Shown here: in pieces, positions 1,144-19,749 of the stretch
Position numbering within the stretch: position 1 is the stretch's first letter
How the letters are laid out: every line of letters begins with the position of its first letter
Made by a program: the position numbers and the translations under genes
IMG/VR virus record: IMGVR_UViG_3300006790_000095
Location: 1 to 26,936 of that record
Origin: a virus
Reading direction: 5' to 3' (one strand)
Length of the DNA: 26,936 nucleotides
Notes under the pieces: generated by a model
Told to the model about the DNA's origin: nothing
Databases searched by the model: none
What the model saw: the letters and a program-made list of their open reading frames with translations, nothing else

Positions 1144-2307
1144 GTGTTCATTGATAACGATTTTCCGAAACTTCTGGGCGCCGAATTATATCGGCCCCAC
1201 CCAGCTTATGTTGCCGAGATGGCAACTGAGCCTGTAGTCGTACATGACTTTACACGTCAACCTGGCCAAACGGTCCAGCTTGATCGCTACAAGTTCTGGG
1301 CATCTCCCGGTACAAAGGATAGCCGTGAGCGTGTGGCTGATGAAACCATCGGTACCGCAAACAGCCGCAACATCACCAAAGAGAAGGTGCTCGTTGTGCT
1401 GAAAGAGTACACAGGTCCTGCAGACCCGTCTGATCCTACACAAGCTTCCACTTTCAAAATTGCTCGGGAGACTTTGGTGACCGCGCAGCGCCTGCTGCTT
1501 GACACCGGGAACCTGAACATGTTCCACCAGTCGATCGGCAGTTTGACTCTGTTAGACGACTACCGACGCTGGCGCGACCGGGTCTTTATTGACGAATTGT
1601 CAAAAGCTGAGGCCAACGGTGTTGCTTCATCTAGCCAGGGCGGATACTACTTTGCTGGCAGTAAAGAAAAGGATAGCTCTGGTCGCATTTCTTACACCGC
1701 TCTTGAGTATGCGGCTCAAGTCCAGCAGTTCTCTGTCAAGACTGATCTGCTGACCGTTGTTAAGGATTTGCGTAAGCGCAACGTGCCGACGTTCGCTGAC
1801 GGTCTGTATCGCTGTATTTGCGATCCGACTTTCATGATGCATCTGCGTCGTGACAATGACTTCCGCGAGATCGCCCGTTACAGCGGCAATCCTGGACAAG
1901 GCATGTACATGGCTAACCCCATGATGCCTAACAACTCCAGCTTCTACATGGGTCCTCAGGCTGGTCAAGCCTACTTCCTGGCTGGCGAACCTGTGATGCC
2001 GACTGGCGTGCAGTTTGAAGGTGTTAAGTTCTACGAGTCCACCAACTTCCCGACTAAGAACATCACCGCTTCCTTCGACAACGGTGGTAACTACGCTTCT
2101 AAAGAAGTCTCCCAAGGTTACTTCTTCGGCCCTCAATCCATCGGTGTTGGTATCGGTGGACCTAACGCTCAGGTGTTAATTAATAACAACGATGATTTCT
2201 CAAGGTTCATCATTCTTATCTGGCAGCTGTACGCGGGCTTCGAAATTCTGAATAAAGATTTCGTTACGACTGCTTTCAGCTTCGTTGAAGATGACGGCGA
2301 TCTCTGA
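1144..2307 (+). CDS. Major capsid protein
   Basis: A 387-aa protein with a GTG start behind a strong GGAGG. Early residues include a GQTVQLDRYKFW strand and an ITKEKVLVVLKEYTGP strand. These resemble the N-arm and E-loop region of HK97-fold capsid proteins, especially the N4 gp56-like family. Long helical and strand segments follow (e.g. LLTVVKDLRKRNVPTFADGL, then a Met/Asn/Pro-rich loop, then FEGVKFYESTNFPT). The length fits a capsid protein. The gene follows a scaffold-type gene and a hairpin, and it uses C-ending codons consistent with high expression. It would form the icosahedral shell. The assignment rests on position, length and fold-like pattern, so the exact family is less certain than the role. 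Confidence 0.8.
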   Translation: MFIDNDFPKLLGAELYRPHPAYVAEMATEPVVVHDFTRQPGQTVQLDRYKFWASPGTKDSRERVADETIGTANSRNITKEKVLVVLKEYTGPADPSDPTQASTFKIARETLVTAQRLLLDTGNLNMFHQSIGSLTLLDDYRRWRDRVFIDELSKAEANGVASSSQGGYYFAGSKEKDSSGRISYTALEYAAQVQQFSVKTDLLTVVKDLRKRNVPTFADGLYRCICDPTFMMHLRRDNDFREIARYSGNPGQGMYMANPMMPNNSSFYMGPQAGQAYFLAGEPVMPTGVQFEGVKFYESTNFPTKNITASFDNGGNYASKEVSQGYFFGPQSIGVGIGGPNAQVLINNNDDFSRFIILIWQLYAGFEILNKDFVTTAFSFVEDDGDL

Positions 2308-15015: not shown

Positions 15016-15684
15016 TTGGCCGTGAGAAACTTTGGCCCGGCTGAATACATTATCAAAAAATATGAGGGCTTCAATAATAAAGCTTACTCAGACCCTCTTT
15101 CTGATGGTGCTTGGACGATCGGCTTCGGTACTCAGTTTTACTCTGATGGTTCTCCCGTTCAGCAGGGTCATCGTATAACGCGAGAAAAGGCTGACGAATA
15201 TTTATCTGATGAGTTGCATGTCATTGAACTTGATCTGTTAGATCTAAATTTACGTTTGGACGACGCCATGGTGCAAGCTTTGGTTTCTTTCATTCATTCA
15301 GTGGGCTGGTCAGCTTTTTTATACAGCAATATTGTTGATGCCATGGATCGTGGCGACGTTACCGCCGCTGTTGAAGAGATTAACAAATGGATTTTCGACG
15401 AAGATCATAAGGCAGTTGGGGGCCTTGTCGAACGTCGCATGGAAGAAACCACGTTGTTTTTGTCAGACTTAGACGATTATTTTGCCCCTCGAATTCCGAA
15501 TATTTTGCTAAAAGCCTTTAGAGATTACGAGGCATCTGCAGAAGAAGTACAGGCGATCCGTCGTTTAGAGTCTTCGATCAGTCCTTATGTACTTGCAGAA
15601 TTTGCGAACTCTTTCGGTTTATACAATAGGAAGAGTTTCTTTTCAGAGTTCGATGTCGATCGGATATTTGAACTGCCGAGTTAA
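15016..15684 (+). CDS. GH24 (T4-type) lysozyme / endolysin with C-terminal extension
   Basis: A 222-aa muramidase. The catalytic triad pattern E-x8-D-x7-T is present: Glu17 in KYEGF, Asp26 in YSDPLSDG and Thr34 in WTIGFGT. The body (VGWSAFLYSNIVDAMDRGD ... WIFDEDHKAVGGLVERR) matches the T4 lysozyme family through about residue 155. The last ~65 residues (APRIPNILLKAFRDYEAS ... FFSEFDVDRIFELPS) are extra and could bind wall or virion. No signal peptide is present, so export would need a holin or the enzyme is particle-borne. TTG 15016 is chosen because it gives the Met-Ala start seen in several genes here; GTG 15022 is the alternative. Confidence 0.85.
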   Translation: MAVRNFGPAEYIIKKYEGFNNKAYSDPLSDGAWTIGFGTQFYSDGSPVQQGHRITREKADEYLSDELHVIELDLLDLNLRLDDAMVQALVSFIHSVGWSAFLYSNIVDAMDRGDVTAAVEEINKWIFDEDHKAVGGLVERRMEETTLFLSDLDDYFAPRIPNILLKAFRDYEASAEEVQAIRRLESSISPYVLAEFANSFGLYNRKSFFSEFDVDRIFELPS

Positions 15685-15707: not shown

Positions 15708-15992
15708 GTGGAGTCATCCAAAGAGACTAAGGAATTTCATTTACCTCTAGAAATGCAGTTCGCTATGCGTAAGGCAGAAGTCCACGCAAAAGAACTGGAT
15801 CGTGAAGAGCTTATCGTCGCCCTTTTAAATTTATACCACCAACGTCTTATGGAGTGGAACGCGATCAAAGCGTTAATGGCAGAAGAGCATGTTGATATTG
15901 AATTTGATATCCCCACCGACCTGGAGTTATCAGAGCTGGTGGGGCAAATGGAATTTGAAGATGAAGATGATGGCGGCTCTTTTGCCGTCTAA
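15708..15992 (+). CDS. nblA: NblA-like phycobilisome degradation protein
   Basis: A 94-aa protein with a GTG start. Residues 11-60 follow the NblA pattern: LPLEMQFAMRKAE (Leu14, Glu15, Gln17, Phe18, Arg21), a Leu/Arg-Glu-Glu turn, LLNLYHQ (39-45), then a helix ending in IKALMAEEH. NblA binds phycobiliproteins and directs the antenna to Clp protease. The protein is longer than ordinary NblA (~60 residues), with an acidic tail (DIPTDLELSELVGQMEFEDEDD) that might change its target. It follows the lysozyme by 23 nt and ends tail-to-tail with the minus-strand DUF3310 gene (CTAA). If correct, it is a host-derived metabolic gene that would dismantle phycobilisomes during infection. A cyanobacterial NblA-related protein of other function is possible. 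Confidence 0.55.
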   Translation: MESSKETKEFHLPLEMQFAMRKAEVHAKELDREELIVALLNLYHQRLMEWNAIKALMAEEHVDIEFDIPTDLELSELVGQMEFEDEDDGGSFAV

Positions 15993-16360
15993 TCATCTAA
16001 AAAAGCAACCAGACGGTCAATGTACCACTGCGCTTTTTTAAGTGACTCGACACCCCCTTTATGAGCTTCGCGCCAAACATACTTGGCTACGTTACCTTTT
16101 AGGTATCCTTTATATTCTTCTGGCGTTAACTGCGCTTCAATTGCTTCAATGCACTCGATACTTCCGTCACAGTAATGTGAAGGATGATTTACCGAATCAA
16201 TAAGCACAGGACGTTCATAATCACTGATCTCATTTTTATTGAATTTACTCGAAAGAGCATCTAACTCAAGTAAATCATCTTCTTGGGAAATAGCAGGCGA
16301 CGTGGCCCAGGGGACTGGACAAACTCCTCCGGGACAAGTCTCTTCTTCTTCAGCGGTCAC
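15989..16360 (-). CDS. DUF3310 family protein
   Basis: A 123-aa protein. The C-terminal half carries the DUF3310 signature: VNHPSHYCDG, IECIEAIEAQLT, GYLKGNVAKYVWR and LKKAQWYIDRL. This small helical domain is common in phages, often near nucleotide-metabolism genes; its biochemical role is not established. The frame stays open to 16723, but I place the start at GTG 16360 because it forms a GTGA overlap with the stop of the upstream gene, and the residues before it are Gly/Ser low-complexity shadow sequence of that gene. The N-terminal ~55 residues are acidic and Cys/Pro-containing. Confidence 0.75.
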   Translation of the reverse strand: MTAEEEETCPGGVCPVPWATSPAISQEDDLLELDALSSKFNKNEISDYERPVLIDSVNHPSHYCDGSIECIEAIEAQLTPEEYKGYLKGNVAKYVWREAHKGGVESLKKAQWYIDRLVAFLDD

Positions 16361-16884
16361 TGGAGCGAAAATCCACGAAGCCTCATCGCTCTCTCCCGTT
16401 CCTGTTGACGAGCCGGATCCATGTTGTCCATCACTGCTGGTTGACCCATCTGAGTCACACCGTTCGAGGCACCCTCCAGCATCCCCCGAGCAAGGCCCTC
16501 CTCCACACTTGGAATGAATCCTGTCAGTCCCGGGCGTGCTCCCGGAGCCTGACTCGGAATCACAGGGGCCATCTCCTTGCCCATATAGAATCCCCGGGAC
16601 TGCGCCTGAACCGAACCCGGATATCGTGATACAGCCTGATCCGCCATCGCTGATTGGCTCTTTAAAACCGGTTCCGGATTTCCTTCCAGTTGAAGTTGCT
16701 GTCTTTCGTACCCCTCTTCGCATACCGCCAGTCCATTGTTGTACTGATTATATGTTGGCACATCTTTACGCTGATTACCAAGCTCTGCATCGAAATCGCA
16801 TACAGAAAGGCAACGGCGTACTGCTGGGTTTGTGCCAATAAAGTTGTCACGAAACGATGCTACAGCGTCAAGCATTTTATTCAT
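16357..16884 (-). CDS. Hypothetical protein coupled to DUF3310 gene
   Basis: A 175-aa protein starting MNKMLDAVASFRDN. The N-terminal ~60 residues contain four cysteines (RRCLSVCDF, LAVCEEG); the rest is Pro/Gly/Gln/Met-rich and probably disordered, ending in ARQQERERAMRLRGFSLQ. The second half of the gene is markedly richer in G+C than its neighbours. The stop overlaps the DUF3310 start (GTGA). The family is not recognised. It is divergent from the gene at 16926, with only 41 nt between the two starts, so both promoters would have to sit within that gap or overlap the coding ends. Confidence 0.55.
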   Translation of the reverse strand: MNKMLDAVASFRDNFIGTNPAVRRCLSVCDFDAELGNQRKDVPTYNQYNNGLAVCEEGYERQQLQLEGNPEPVLKSQSAMADQAVSRYPGSVQAQSRGFYMGKEMAPVIPSQAPGARPGLTGFIPSVEEGLARGMLEGASNGVTQMGQPAVMDNMDPARQQERERAMRLRGFSLQ

Positions 16885-16925: not shown

Positions 16926-17291
16926 TTGGCAGAATTTCGCGGCGGATATGAACCAGATGCTCGTTTTCTAGACGAAGACGAGCAGGTCGATCTACGCAGG
17001 GCGCAGGGTGCTTTCCAGCAGCGTTCTTCGCCTGATGTAAGAGAAGATAATGCTCGACGACGTGCCTTAAGTGCCAAGGCCGCTGGTGAGTATCGTAAAC
17101 GGCAGGGATACTCTCAACCCAATCTTGGTGGCCGTATTTCAGTCGGTAAGTTTGTCCTAGATTCTTCCCCGTTTGGAGGCACTGAGTTACCTAGCTTACG
17201 GGGAAGAAACTATGGAAGACCTGGTGCAGGCGGCATGATGTATGCAGATAAACCGGATGCCGCCTTTGGTACTTTTTACGGCTTCTCTTAA
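16926..17291 (+). CDS. Hypothetical Arg/Gly-rich protein between two minus-strand blocks
   Basis: A 121-aa protein with a TTG start and AGGGAG ~11 nt upstream; MAEFRGGYEP is again a Met-Ala start. The N-terminal half is charged and helical (DEDEQVDLRRAQGAFQQ, DNARRRALSAKAAGEYRKRQ); the C-terminal half is Gly/Pro/Tyr-rich and likely disordered. No motif is recognised. It is a lone plus-strand gene facing the dCTP deaminase gene, sharing TTAA so that both stop codons overlap. The composition is compatible with a minor virion protein. Confidence 0.5.
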   Translation: MAEFRGGYEPDARFLDEDEQVDLRRAQGAFQQRSSPDVREDNARRRALSAKAAGEYRKRQGYSQPNLGGRISVGKFVLDSSPFGGTELPSLRGRNYGRPGAGGMMYADKPDAAFGTFYGFS

Positions 17292-17872
17292 ACCTTAGAG
17301 AAGACAACTTCTGCAGGTTGATTTTGATATTTACCCTTGCGGTCTTGATAACTAACTGAACAGTCTTCGCCAGTCAAAAATAAGAGCTGTGTAATACCTT
17401 CATTGACATAAATTTTGTTAAATAGTCCTGTGCAGTTACTAATTTCTAATGTTAAATAACCTTCCCACATTGCTTCGGCGGGAGTGATATTGACAAGGAT
17501 TCCCGAACGGGCATAAGTTGACTTACCCACGGCTACTACTGTGACATTACGAGGCAACTTAAGCCGTTCTTTTGCAACGCCCAGACAGTAACCATAGGGC
17601 GGAAGAATGTAATAAGAACCTTTACTATCTTTATGTAAATCAAGGGGCTTGAGGATGTCAGGATCAAAGTCCTTTGGATCACAGACGCCAGACTGAACAC
17701 CACCAAATAAAAAACAATGCTTGTCGTCGAGACGAATATCGTATCCGTAAGACCCTAAACCGTAACTAAGAATTTTCTTGCCATCTACTTCGGAAACTGT
17801 ATGATCGGCAAACGGTTCAATCATCTGGCTTTCTTTAGCCAGTGCCGCAATTTCTTTGTCGGCTAAAAGCAT
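17288..17872 (-). CDS. dcd: dCTP deaminase (possibly bifunctional dCTP deaminase/dUTPase)
   Basis: A 194-aa protein of the dUTPase/dCTP deaminase fold. The GKSTYARSGI motif (116-125) is the nucleotide-binding signature, followed by ITPAEAMWEGYLTLEISN (129-146), where Glu143 is the expected catalytic acid. SYGYDIRLD (41-49) is the conserved N-terminal strand. It converts dCTP to dUTP (or onward to dUMP if bifunctional), feeding dTMP synthesis for phage DNA. Length matches the family. GGAG lies about 8 nt before the ATG. It is the last gene of the minus-strand operon, 23 nt after the Dam-like gene, and ends tail-to-tail with the gene at 16926. Confidence 0.85.
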   Translation of the reverse strand: MLLADKEIAALAKESQMIEPFADHTVSEVDGKKILSYGLGSYGYDIRLDDKHCFLFGGVQSGVCDPKDFDPDILKPLDLHKDSKGSYYILPPYGYCLGVAKERLKLPRNVTVVAVGKSTYARSGILVNITPAEAMWEGYLTLEISNCTGLFNKIYVNEGITQLLFLTGEDCSVSYQDRKGKYQNQPAEVVFSKV

Positions 17873-17895
17873 TAGCTTTCTCCAGGTATATAAGC

Positions 17896-18477
17896 TTAAC
17901 AGATACAGCGGCCCATAGGACTATAGATATCGATAAATCTCTGGATGTTTTCATCATTCAAACCGTGTGGCGGCATGTAAACCAGGAAGGTCGTACATGT
18001 TTTATAGGATTTCTCTAAACCTTTACTGGTGTTCTTAATTAAGTACGGGCGGTTTGCTAAGACGCAAAAAGGAAAGTCAAAGATACGCTGATCCATCCTC
18101 AGCATGTCTGGGTGGTTCGTCATATACAAAGCGTGTTTGATGTTTCCCTTCCACCATTCTCTGTACAGTCGGCGGAACCAAACCGCATGAGACGATACTA
18201 ATGTACTAGACGAAGCGCGTGTCTTTTTCCATCTAACGTTTCTTTTATCCCAAAAGTATGTACCTGCCGGAGGAAATAGATACACACTTCCGTGCCAATC
18301 CTGGACATTGAGTCCGTCATCACTAGGCGTGTAATACTGTGTAGCTTGTACGAAACGATTGGCTACTTTAGAACTAGCTACGTCAAGATCTATGCCACCT
18401 AGTAATGCATGGGCATTACTCGTAAGATCTTGGTTCGTAATAAGTTCTAAGTCCTCCTGATAATTCCTGGGTCTCAT
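17896..18477 (-). CDS. Dam-like N6-adenine methyltransferase homologue with altered motif IV
   Basis: A 193-aa protein. GGIDLDVASSKVANRFV (28-43), YYTPSDDGL (48-56), W61-HG and LFPPAG (67-72) follow the order of the phage N6-adenine methyltransferase (PF05869-like) family: LDxASS, YYTxxDDGL, W-G, then the catalytic NPP[YG]. In this protein the Asn of NPP is Phe, so the base-binding Asn expected for methyl transfer is missing. The downstream region (WFRRLYREWWKGN, ALYMTNHPDML) still matches the family fold. It may be an inactive DNA-binding homologue or act on another substrate. It starts at ATG 18477 overlapping the upstream stop (ATGA) in the minus-strand operon. Confidence 0.65.
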   Translation of the reverse strand: MRPRNYQEDLELITNQDLTSNAHALLGGIDLDVASSKVANRFVQATQYYTPSDDGLNVQDWHGSVYLFPPAGTYFWDKRNVRWKKTRASSSTLVSSHAVWFRRLYREWWKGNIKHALYMTNHPDMLRMDQRIFDFPFCVLANRPYLIKNTSKGLEKSYKTCTTFLVYMPPHGLNDENIQRFIDIYSPMGRCIC

Positions 18478-18878
18478 GAGACAACGTCTTCTAACTTGTC
18501 TCCTGCAGCAGTGTTGTAATCAATCTCAAAATAACGTATGCCTTCGTGGTCGTTGACTACATAACCAGCTTTCTCAGTAGGGTCAATTTTTTGTGCTGCA
18601 GCCAATATCCTTCGAAAGGTTTCAGCAAGGTCGCCATTATTATCTCGCTCACAAGATTCTTCTGCGGCATGTAGCTCTTTAAGACTCATGAAGAACACGT
18701 TACGTTCTTGTTCCGGCTGGAAACACATAACGCCAGGGCCTTCAGCATCCCAAAACTTGCAATACTGTTTCCCCATATCCGCCAAGATAATCTTGACTGT
18801 AGTGTCAAGCATCCGAGTTTTAGTCAGGTCCGGCTCTTTACCCAAGAGACTGAACAGAAGCTTTTCTCTACGGTTCAT
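18474..18878 (-). CDS. Hypothetical operon protein (134 aa)
   Basis: The product starts MNRREKLLFSLLGKEPDLTK and is mixed alpha/beta with an acidic middle (AAEESCERDNNGDLAETF) and a C-terminal strand (GIRYFEIDYN). No catalytic motif or named family is recognised. Both ends overlap neighbours by ATGA, so it is translationally coupled between the 151-aa protein and the Dam-like protein. Its tight linkage suggests a partner or regulator of one of them. Confidence 0.6.
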   Translation of the reverse strand: MNRREKLLFSLLGKEPDLTKTRMLDTTVKIILADMGKQYCKFWDAEGPGVMCFQPEQERNVFFMSLKELHAAEESCERDNNGDLAETFRRILAAAQKIDPTEKAGYVVNDHEGIRYFEIDYNTAAGDKLEDVVS

Positions 18879-19330
18879 TTCAGTAATCCTTGTTTGCGTA
18901 ATGAATCCAGAAGTTTTACTTCAGGCCTATACGTGACAACCATTTTGCCAAGCGCCCCCTTCTGCTTGATCAGCTTACCATTTTCGTCACGCAATTTACT
19001 AAACTCTCCGGATCTAATTAAATATTCTGCTACGCAACGCAGTCGTCTTTTGAGAGGAAGTTCTGCGGTAGGAAACTTGCCGCAAATGGTAGCGGGCTGC
19101 ATGTCTTTGAAGGCAATGCGAAGGCGATTCGCCAAGGTCATATGAGAATTTTCATCCTCATCTTCATATTTTTTTAAAGCTTCAAGATATCTTTTGAGGC
19201 AATCTGTATCAAAGGAACCACTAGGCGGTATAAAAGGTTGAATTTGTTTTGCTAAAGAGTCCGGAAGAATATCGTGAAAGTTTTCTAGAGTAACCTCAGC
19301 GATACTGACATTATTAAATCGGTAACTCAT
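18875..19330 (-). CDS. Hypothetical operon protein (151 aa)
   Basis: The product starts MSYRFNNVSIAEVTLENFHD. Residues ~80-130 (LANRLRIAFKDMQPATICGK, then ELPLKRRLRCVAEYLIRSGE) are basic and helical, with a look of a winged-helix or small DNA-contacting domain, but I cannot name a family. It follows the HTH gene with an ATGA overlap and runs into the 134-aa gene in the same way. A role in DNA transactions is a guess from the operon and its charge. Confidence 0.6.
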   Translation of the reverse strand: MSYRFNNVSIAEVTLENFHDILPDSLAKQIQPFIPPSGSFDTDCLKRYLEALKKYEDEDENSHMTLANRLRIAFKDMQPATICGKFPTAELPLKRRLRCVAEYLIRSGEFSKLRDENGKLIKQKGALGKMVVTYRPEVKLLDSLRKQGLLK

Positions 19331-19749
19331 AGGTCAGGGTCGGCCAGATCGTCCTCTCTAGGTTTAGTCCTATATTTAGTGGCTCTATTAAAGGCGCTGT
19401 CATCCGTATTATTATTTGCCGCAAAAGTACCTACGAGTTGATTCCATGGAATTCGAATTGTTCCACGATGTACGGTATCGGCATTCATGTTGACGTAATG
19501 AATACCCTCCTTCCAACCTGTTTTTGCATAGCGTCCCATTGTGATCCAGTTGCGTAACGTGGATTCAGAGATGCTTAAACGACGGGCGCATTCCTCCAAA
19601 GTAATGTATTCATCAGCGTACGCTCTTGGATCGAGAACATCGGTTTCTCCGTTTTGATATCGGCTATGCCACATCGCTTCAAGACAAAGTCGAATACCTC
19701 TAAGTTCAGAAACAATTGCTCTGATTCCAGTATTTGTCGGGGATGGCAT
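19327..19749 (-). CDS. Helix-turn-helix DNA-binding protein, first gene of minus-strand operon
   Basis: A 140-aa protein. Residues 48-106 form an excisionase/MerR-type winged HTH: YITLEECARRLSISESTLRN followed by the wing GIHYVNMN and RGTIRIPWNQLV. The N-terminal helix (GIRAIVSELRGIRLCLEAMW) may dimerise; the C-terminus is charged and probably disordered. It is the promoter-proximal gene of a five-gene unit ending with dcd and may autoregulate it. The 55-nt gap to the divergent gene at 19805 contains TATAAT. GAGGAT directly precedes the ATG, unusually close for a ribosome binding site. Confidence 0.7.
   Translation of the reverse strand: MPSPTNTGIRAIVSELRGIRLCLEAMWHSRYQNGETDVLDPRAYADEYITLEECARRLSISESTLRNWITMGRYAKTGWKEGIHYVNMNADTVHRGTIRIPWNQLVGTFAANNNTDDSAFNRATKYRTKPREDDLADPDL

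Follow-up and report, generated by a model that had tools for sequence, protein, structure and literature searches.

What does the short open reading frame behind the lysozyme gene of this virus encode, and what might its product do in an infected host? The window, which is the whole stretch of 26,936 nucleotides analysed here (IMG/VR virus record IMGVR_UViG_3300006790_000095), had received a preliminary description in which the frame was read as an NblA-like gene that serves to dismantle the host antenna late in infection. NblA brings phycobilisomes to the Clp protease (PMC7966870); a motif close to its N-terminus binds ClpC, and another close to its C-terminus binds phycobiliproteins (PMC4103541). 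The conserved N-terminal motif, L-S/T-L-E-Q-Q/E-F, is the reported ClpC binder. The comparisons presented below suggest that the gene probably encodes a phage-borne proteolysis adaptor of the NblA family, characteristic of S-EIV1-like cyanobacterial viruses and delivering phycobiliproteins to host Clp. The features concerned are collected in Table 1.

Table 1. Position of the NblA-like gene, its predicted parts and the reference genes within the window
Feature	Position	Strand	Description and basis
NblA-like gene	15708..15992	+	94 aa, GTG start, TAA stop at 15990-15992; PF04485 match and purifying selection
Predicted NblA core, residues 12-58	15741..15881	+	N-terminal motif LPLEMQF.MR and helix-loop-helix; place of the PF04485 match, predicted helices
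Lineage-specific linker, residues 59-77 (EEHVDIEFDIPTDLELSEL)	15882..15938	+	Invariant residues in 31 sequences
Acidic C-terminal tail, predicted disordered, residues 78-94 (VGQMEFEDEDDGGSFAV)	15939..15989	+	pLDDT <50 from residue ~83-85
Phage lysozyme, fixed upstream neighbour	15016..15684	+	PF00959, E=2.3e-24
Convergent DUF3310 gene	15989..16723	-	PF11753, E=4.1e-19, residues 178-236
Major capsid protein	1144..2307	+	phrog_1357 major head protein; 83.7% identical to KJ410740

Translation of the 94-aa frame returned both LPLEMQFAMRKAE and LLNLYHQ, the two motifs from which the NblA-like identity had originally been proposed, and comparison with relatives showed that the frame is not accidental: it encodes a protein that purifying selection strongly maintains. 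The core of the window gene differs from that of the related locus L004 at 30 of 36 synonymous sites but at only 3 of 138 non-synonymous sites, and dN/dS, where computable (closer pairs), amounts to 0.02-0.04 for the core and to 0.04-0.24 for the linker. The alignment places a start at this position in all family members. No obvious Shine-Dalgarno sequence was found upstream of the GTG codon of the window gene; an AGGAG-type site lies at the same place in close relatives with ATG (L005-L010). The frame starts 23 nt after the end of the lysozyme gene, and its stop overlaps that of the convergent DUF3310 gene by 2 nt. The annotated start of this DUF3310 gene is probably too far upstream, with the true start much further downstream. 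As listed, its ORF has 244 aa and overlaps an upstream 175-aa ORF in another frame by ~370 nt (15989-16884, minus strand); the S-EIV1 counterpart has 79 aa.

Judged by its major capsid protein, for which KJ410740 (S-EIV1) was the only phage record matched, the window is part of the genome of an S-EIV1-like cyanophage, and the host of the window phage would be assigned by analogy with S-EIV1 only. The S-EIV1 genome holds an orthologue of the NblA-like gene in the same place, AHV82245.1, annotated as 'hypothetical protein'; its score of 17.4 bits to PF04485 falls under the Pfam cut-off, which may explain why it carries no NblA label. IMG/VR was scanned twice, with 478 and at least 528 relatives confirmed, respectively. 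The lysozyme gene is directly upstream in every one of the 81 loci whose upstream flank is long enough, so that the position behind the lysozyme, remarked on in the preliminary description, holds across the lineage; the DUF3310 gene is likewise downstream in 81 of the 81 loci with enough downstream sequence. To avoid selecting on the NblA-like gene itself, 15 contigs were picked by the capsid protein alone, and the gene was present in 11 of the 11 that reach the position. The other four end ~1-10 kb downstream of the capsid gene, where 13-15 kb are needed, and are therefore not counter-examples. On these comparisons of sequence and gene order, the NblA-like gene is fixed in the S-EIV1-like lineage and is the orthologue of the unlabelled S-EIV1 gene.

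Several further observations were made on these genomes. A minus-strand cluster at 17288-19749, comprising a dCTP deaminase (phrog_1663, E=1.7e-50), a DNA-methyltransferase-like protein (phrog_111) and unknown proteins, is kept behind the NblA locus across the lineage. The S-EIV1 capsid gene (KJ410740 60784-62010, equal to L187 10784-12010) appears to be mis-annotated: the match of the window capsid protein, 387 aa long, covers KJ410740 60859-62007 on the plus strand, where the record has one ORF on the minus strand and a shorter one on the plus strand. The window also encodes two tail-fibre-like proteins made up of SGxTxTG repeats (655 and 279 aa, 20212-23060) and a 139-aa protein ending in repeated TTSSGEE units (24512-24931), over which repeat the opposite strand is open as well.

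Membership of the NblA family was examined by profile comparison in both directions. A search against PF04485, proposed in the preliminary description as a check, gave 26.2 bits for the window protein over profile positions 2-48 of 50 against a curated cut-off of 25 bits (26.8 bits in the genome search), and all 13 members of the first family alignment matched this profile at E<=1, with 9e-6 as the best value. When a profile of 31 family members was compared by hhalign with a 13-member NblA alignment, the two aligned ungapped over 52 columns with 97.2% probability and E=4e-11, at an identity to cyanobacterial NblA of only ~21%. Conversely, the phage-family profile found matches in 24 of 386 cyanobacterial genomes, and in the 11 of these that were also searched with PF04485 every such match falls on the place of the PF04485 match. 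An HMM of cyanobacterial NblAs scored the 31 family members at 22-35 bits (window protein, 29.1), whereas the best of 9300 core-shuffled versions reached 11.0 bits; the similarity is thus not compositional, and chance resemblance of a helical peptide was ruled out by these shuffles. Both the match above the curated cut-off and the reciprocal profile matches bear out the NblA-like identity. Among other candidate families, phrog_4326 (E=0.068, residues 8-81) was rejected as a family common to cyanophage NblAs after it gave no match in seven cyanophage records, and the TADA2A-like and gp19 families were weak Pfam matches far below their cut-offs.

Conserved residues and the predicted fold were also compared with those of NblA. 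Within LPLEMQF, the L, L, E, Q and F of the NblA motif are kept and are invariant or nearly so in the family, the invariant positions of the N-terminal motif being L12, L14, Q17, F18 and R21, while the invariant EQ pair of NblA is EM or EL in the phage family, its first Q being replaced by M or L. Helix 2 retains the leucine, tyrosine and glutamine of LYxQ. At its end, L51 and K53 of Anabaena NblA, putative phycobiliprotein-contact residues, align in the hhalign columns with L56 (kept) and A58 (changed); a search for a literature source of mutation data on L51/K53 found none. An AlphaFold2 model of the single chain contains helices at residues ~14-28/29 and 32-59 joined by a short loop, with block pLDDT values of 74-88; a weaker helix begins at residue 71, and the end of the chain is disordered. 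Had the protein lacked both a profile match and a two-helix hairpin, the preliminary description would have considered its proposal wrong; instead, a profile match and a predicted helix-loop-helix were obtained. Foldseek searches with two models against PDB and BFVD returned no NblA structure or useful match, the method being weak for two helices. Overall, the protein has a predicted NblA core, with the N-terminal motif and the second helix, that is fixed in the lineage.

The difference in length from cellular NblA lies behind this core. Phage proteins of the family are 94-108 aa long versus 55-66 aa for cyanobacterial NblAs (42 distinct sequences), a range that is usual but not defining, and the window protein exceeds it because of its linker and tail. 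E60, D67, P69, T70, E73, E76 and L77 of the linker are invariant in 31 sequences, and in the 386 cyanobacterial genomes no match of the phage profile extends past profile position 64. In the last 20 residues, 71 distinct family members have on average 8.8 Asp/Glu and 0.2 Lys/Arg, so that the long acidic C-terminal tail, previously pointed out as unusual for NblA, proves to be a property of the whole lineage. The tail ends in -PF, most often LQPF, in 64 of these 71 proteins; the seven exceptions form the window's own sub-branch, with the ends SFAV, FSAV, NCFL, KSFL, NCLL and DPVG, and the window protein itself closes with EDEDDGGSFAV, an acidic run without -PF. The linker and tail are a lineage-specific addition that would most likely serve as a further contact site or give the Clp machine an unstructured region to grip.

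Most likely, the gene encodes an active but divergent phage NblA that would hand phycobilisomes to ClpC, an activity predicted from its conserved features. Briefly, the protein would form the helical-hairpin dimer of NblA, with its N-terminal motif docking on host ClpC and helix 2 binding phycobiliproteins; these would be passed to the host Clp protease, which would release amino acids and lower light harvesting during infection. Gene order suggests transcription together with structural and lysis genes, and so mostly late expression. Points that weigh against the NblA reading are the low identity (~21%) to cyanobacterial NblA, the EM/EL pair in place of EQ, the alanine at the K53 column, a length of 94 aa where ~60 is usual, and the Foldseek searches, which returned no NblA structure.

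This prediction has two live rivals, which are, in order, retargeting or anti-Clp action and docking through an SSB-type tip. The first would make the protein a Clp adaptor or anti-adaptor instead of an antenna-breakdown factor: the ClpC-docking half would be kept, while the changed helix 2, linker and tail would recruit a different substrate, or else ClpC would be occupied and host proteolysis blocked. The invariance of the N-terminal motif is in line with such a role, as is the fact that the strongest conservation runs on into R46, E49, W50 and the invariant linker residues, all absent from NblA. However, the leucine, tyrosine and glutamine of LYxQ in helix 2 persist, and other divergent phage NblAs still caused phycobilin loss when expressed (PMC9602691), and we regard retargeting as unlikely. 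It is far less probable again that the protein is no NblA but a small helical phage protein, structural or related to lysis, that resembles NblA over its first 50 residues by chance. Short helical segments can give weak profile matches, the gene sits in the lysis module and Foldseek offered no match, but the gap between shuffled and real sequences, the location of all cross-checked cyanobacterial genome matches on NblA loci and the high-probability ungapped alignment argue against it.

The tail raises the other live rival, in which the acidic run and -xPF act as an SSB-type docking tip. Such a tip would fit into the SSB-tip pocket of a replication or repair protein, of phage or host origin, and would either recruit the NblA-like protein to the replisome or draw an SSB partner to Clp. 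The DDDIPF tip of SSB is known to dock proteins (PMC5872125, PMC7145534), and the prevalence of -PF behind an acidic run in the family is matched by the SSBs of the same phages, which end in acidic -xPF in 15 of 17 lineage records (DMTDEPF in S-EIV1 and -PF in 14 more). Two SSBs deviate, that of G001 (CFQLF) and that of its 97% relative L291 (DDNEHF); G001 is contig IMGVR_UViG_3300006810_000037 of the window's sub-branch, with SSB loci L289/L290, and the SSB of L291 stops earlier. In a census of the 109-142 ORFs of at least 80 aa in four genomes of the -PF group, this end is confined to SSB and the NblA-like protein, joined by one further protein at most. The window's sub-branch was represented by a single genome, G001, in which no ORF of this size ends in -PF. 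The sole third -PF protein of genome G029 (L434 1728-2135, minus strand), of ~128 aa and ending TLEEIPF, resembles a small SSB-like (OB-fold) protein by eye. Against a docking role stand the SFAV end of the window protein and the absence of -PF throughout its sub-branch, a spacing unlike that of the SSB tip, with two residues (usually LQ) separating PF from the acids, and a candidate tip without a known partner. A joint loss of -PF from SSB and the NblA-like protein is kept as a lead because it comes from G001, a single genome, whose near relative L291 retains the acidic DDNEHF. The likeness to SSB, namely acidic residues followed by a terminal Pro-Phe in most of the lineage, concerns the end only; the window protein lacks it, and the NblA-like protein has no DNA-binding domain. 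The resemblance is accordingly presented as a lead and not as a result, and SSB-type docking is considered improbable, more so than retargeting. The same low probability is given to the fuller scenario, in which an NblA-type Clp adaptor would have gained an SSB-style tip and would bring SSB-binding replication or repair factors to host Clp, or link phage DNA replication with the breakdown of the antenna; in the window's sub-branch, the tip would have been lost or changed on both the NblA-like protein and SSB.

If the gene works as the antenna-breakdown reading predicts, antenna breakdown would be a fixed function of the S-EIV1 lineage and not an occasional extra. The conserved linker and tail are new to this well-studied adaptor and offer a way into the transfer of NblA cargo to Clp. 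S-EIV1 is a cultured isolate, so the prediction is directly testable. In one study (PMC5332604), this lineage accounted for 3.3% of the marine cyanophage signal, and Table 2 there gives hli and ptoX, and no nblA, for the S-EIV1 genus-level group. A search for the high-light-inducible gene (PF00504) in six lineage genomes gave nothing over the cut-off. Recent work on viral NblA proteins reportedly places the gene in several marine cyanophage families. No attribution of nblA to the S-EIV1 lineage was found in the literature examined. The novelty lies in the tail and in the fixation of the gene across the lineage; phage nblA itself is already known in several cyanophage groups.

With Anabaena NblA as the query, a tblastn search of phages gave no relevant match, even though the collection includes Ma-LMM01 and PaV-LD, both of which the profile search found; absence by tblastn is thus weak evidence. 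The NblAs of these Microcystis (Ma-LMM01, BAF36096.1) and Planktothrix (PaV-LD) phages resemble the present protein in being phage-carried, but with 52 and 45 bits to PF04485 they are closer to the cellular form and lack the acidic tail, and nblA of Ma-LMM01 overlaps nrdA, not lysozyme. Phage NblA homologues have also been reported for marine cyanomyoviruses such as S-SCSM1 (QFG06501.1) and for cyanopodoviruses (PMC9602691); unlike the window protein, that of S-SCSM1 has 54 aa and no tail. S-SCSM1, S-TIM5, Syn5 and P60 gave no match in a PF04485 search, which sets them at a greater distance from the cellular form than the window gene. Cyanobacterial NblA (PF04485; PDB 1OJH, 3CS5, 2Q8V, 2QDO) shares the LxLExQFxxR motif, the helix-loop-helix and the ungapped alignment with the phage protein, but is shorter, has neither conserved linker nor acidic tail, and reads EQQF in place of EMQF/ELQF. 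The closest counterpart is AHV82245.1 of S-EIV1, which has the same lysozyme, DUF3310 and dCTP deaminase neighbours, 58% identity over residues 1-77 and an acidic tail, and differs from the window protein in its sub-threshold Pfam score and in a longer tail that ends LAPF.
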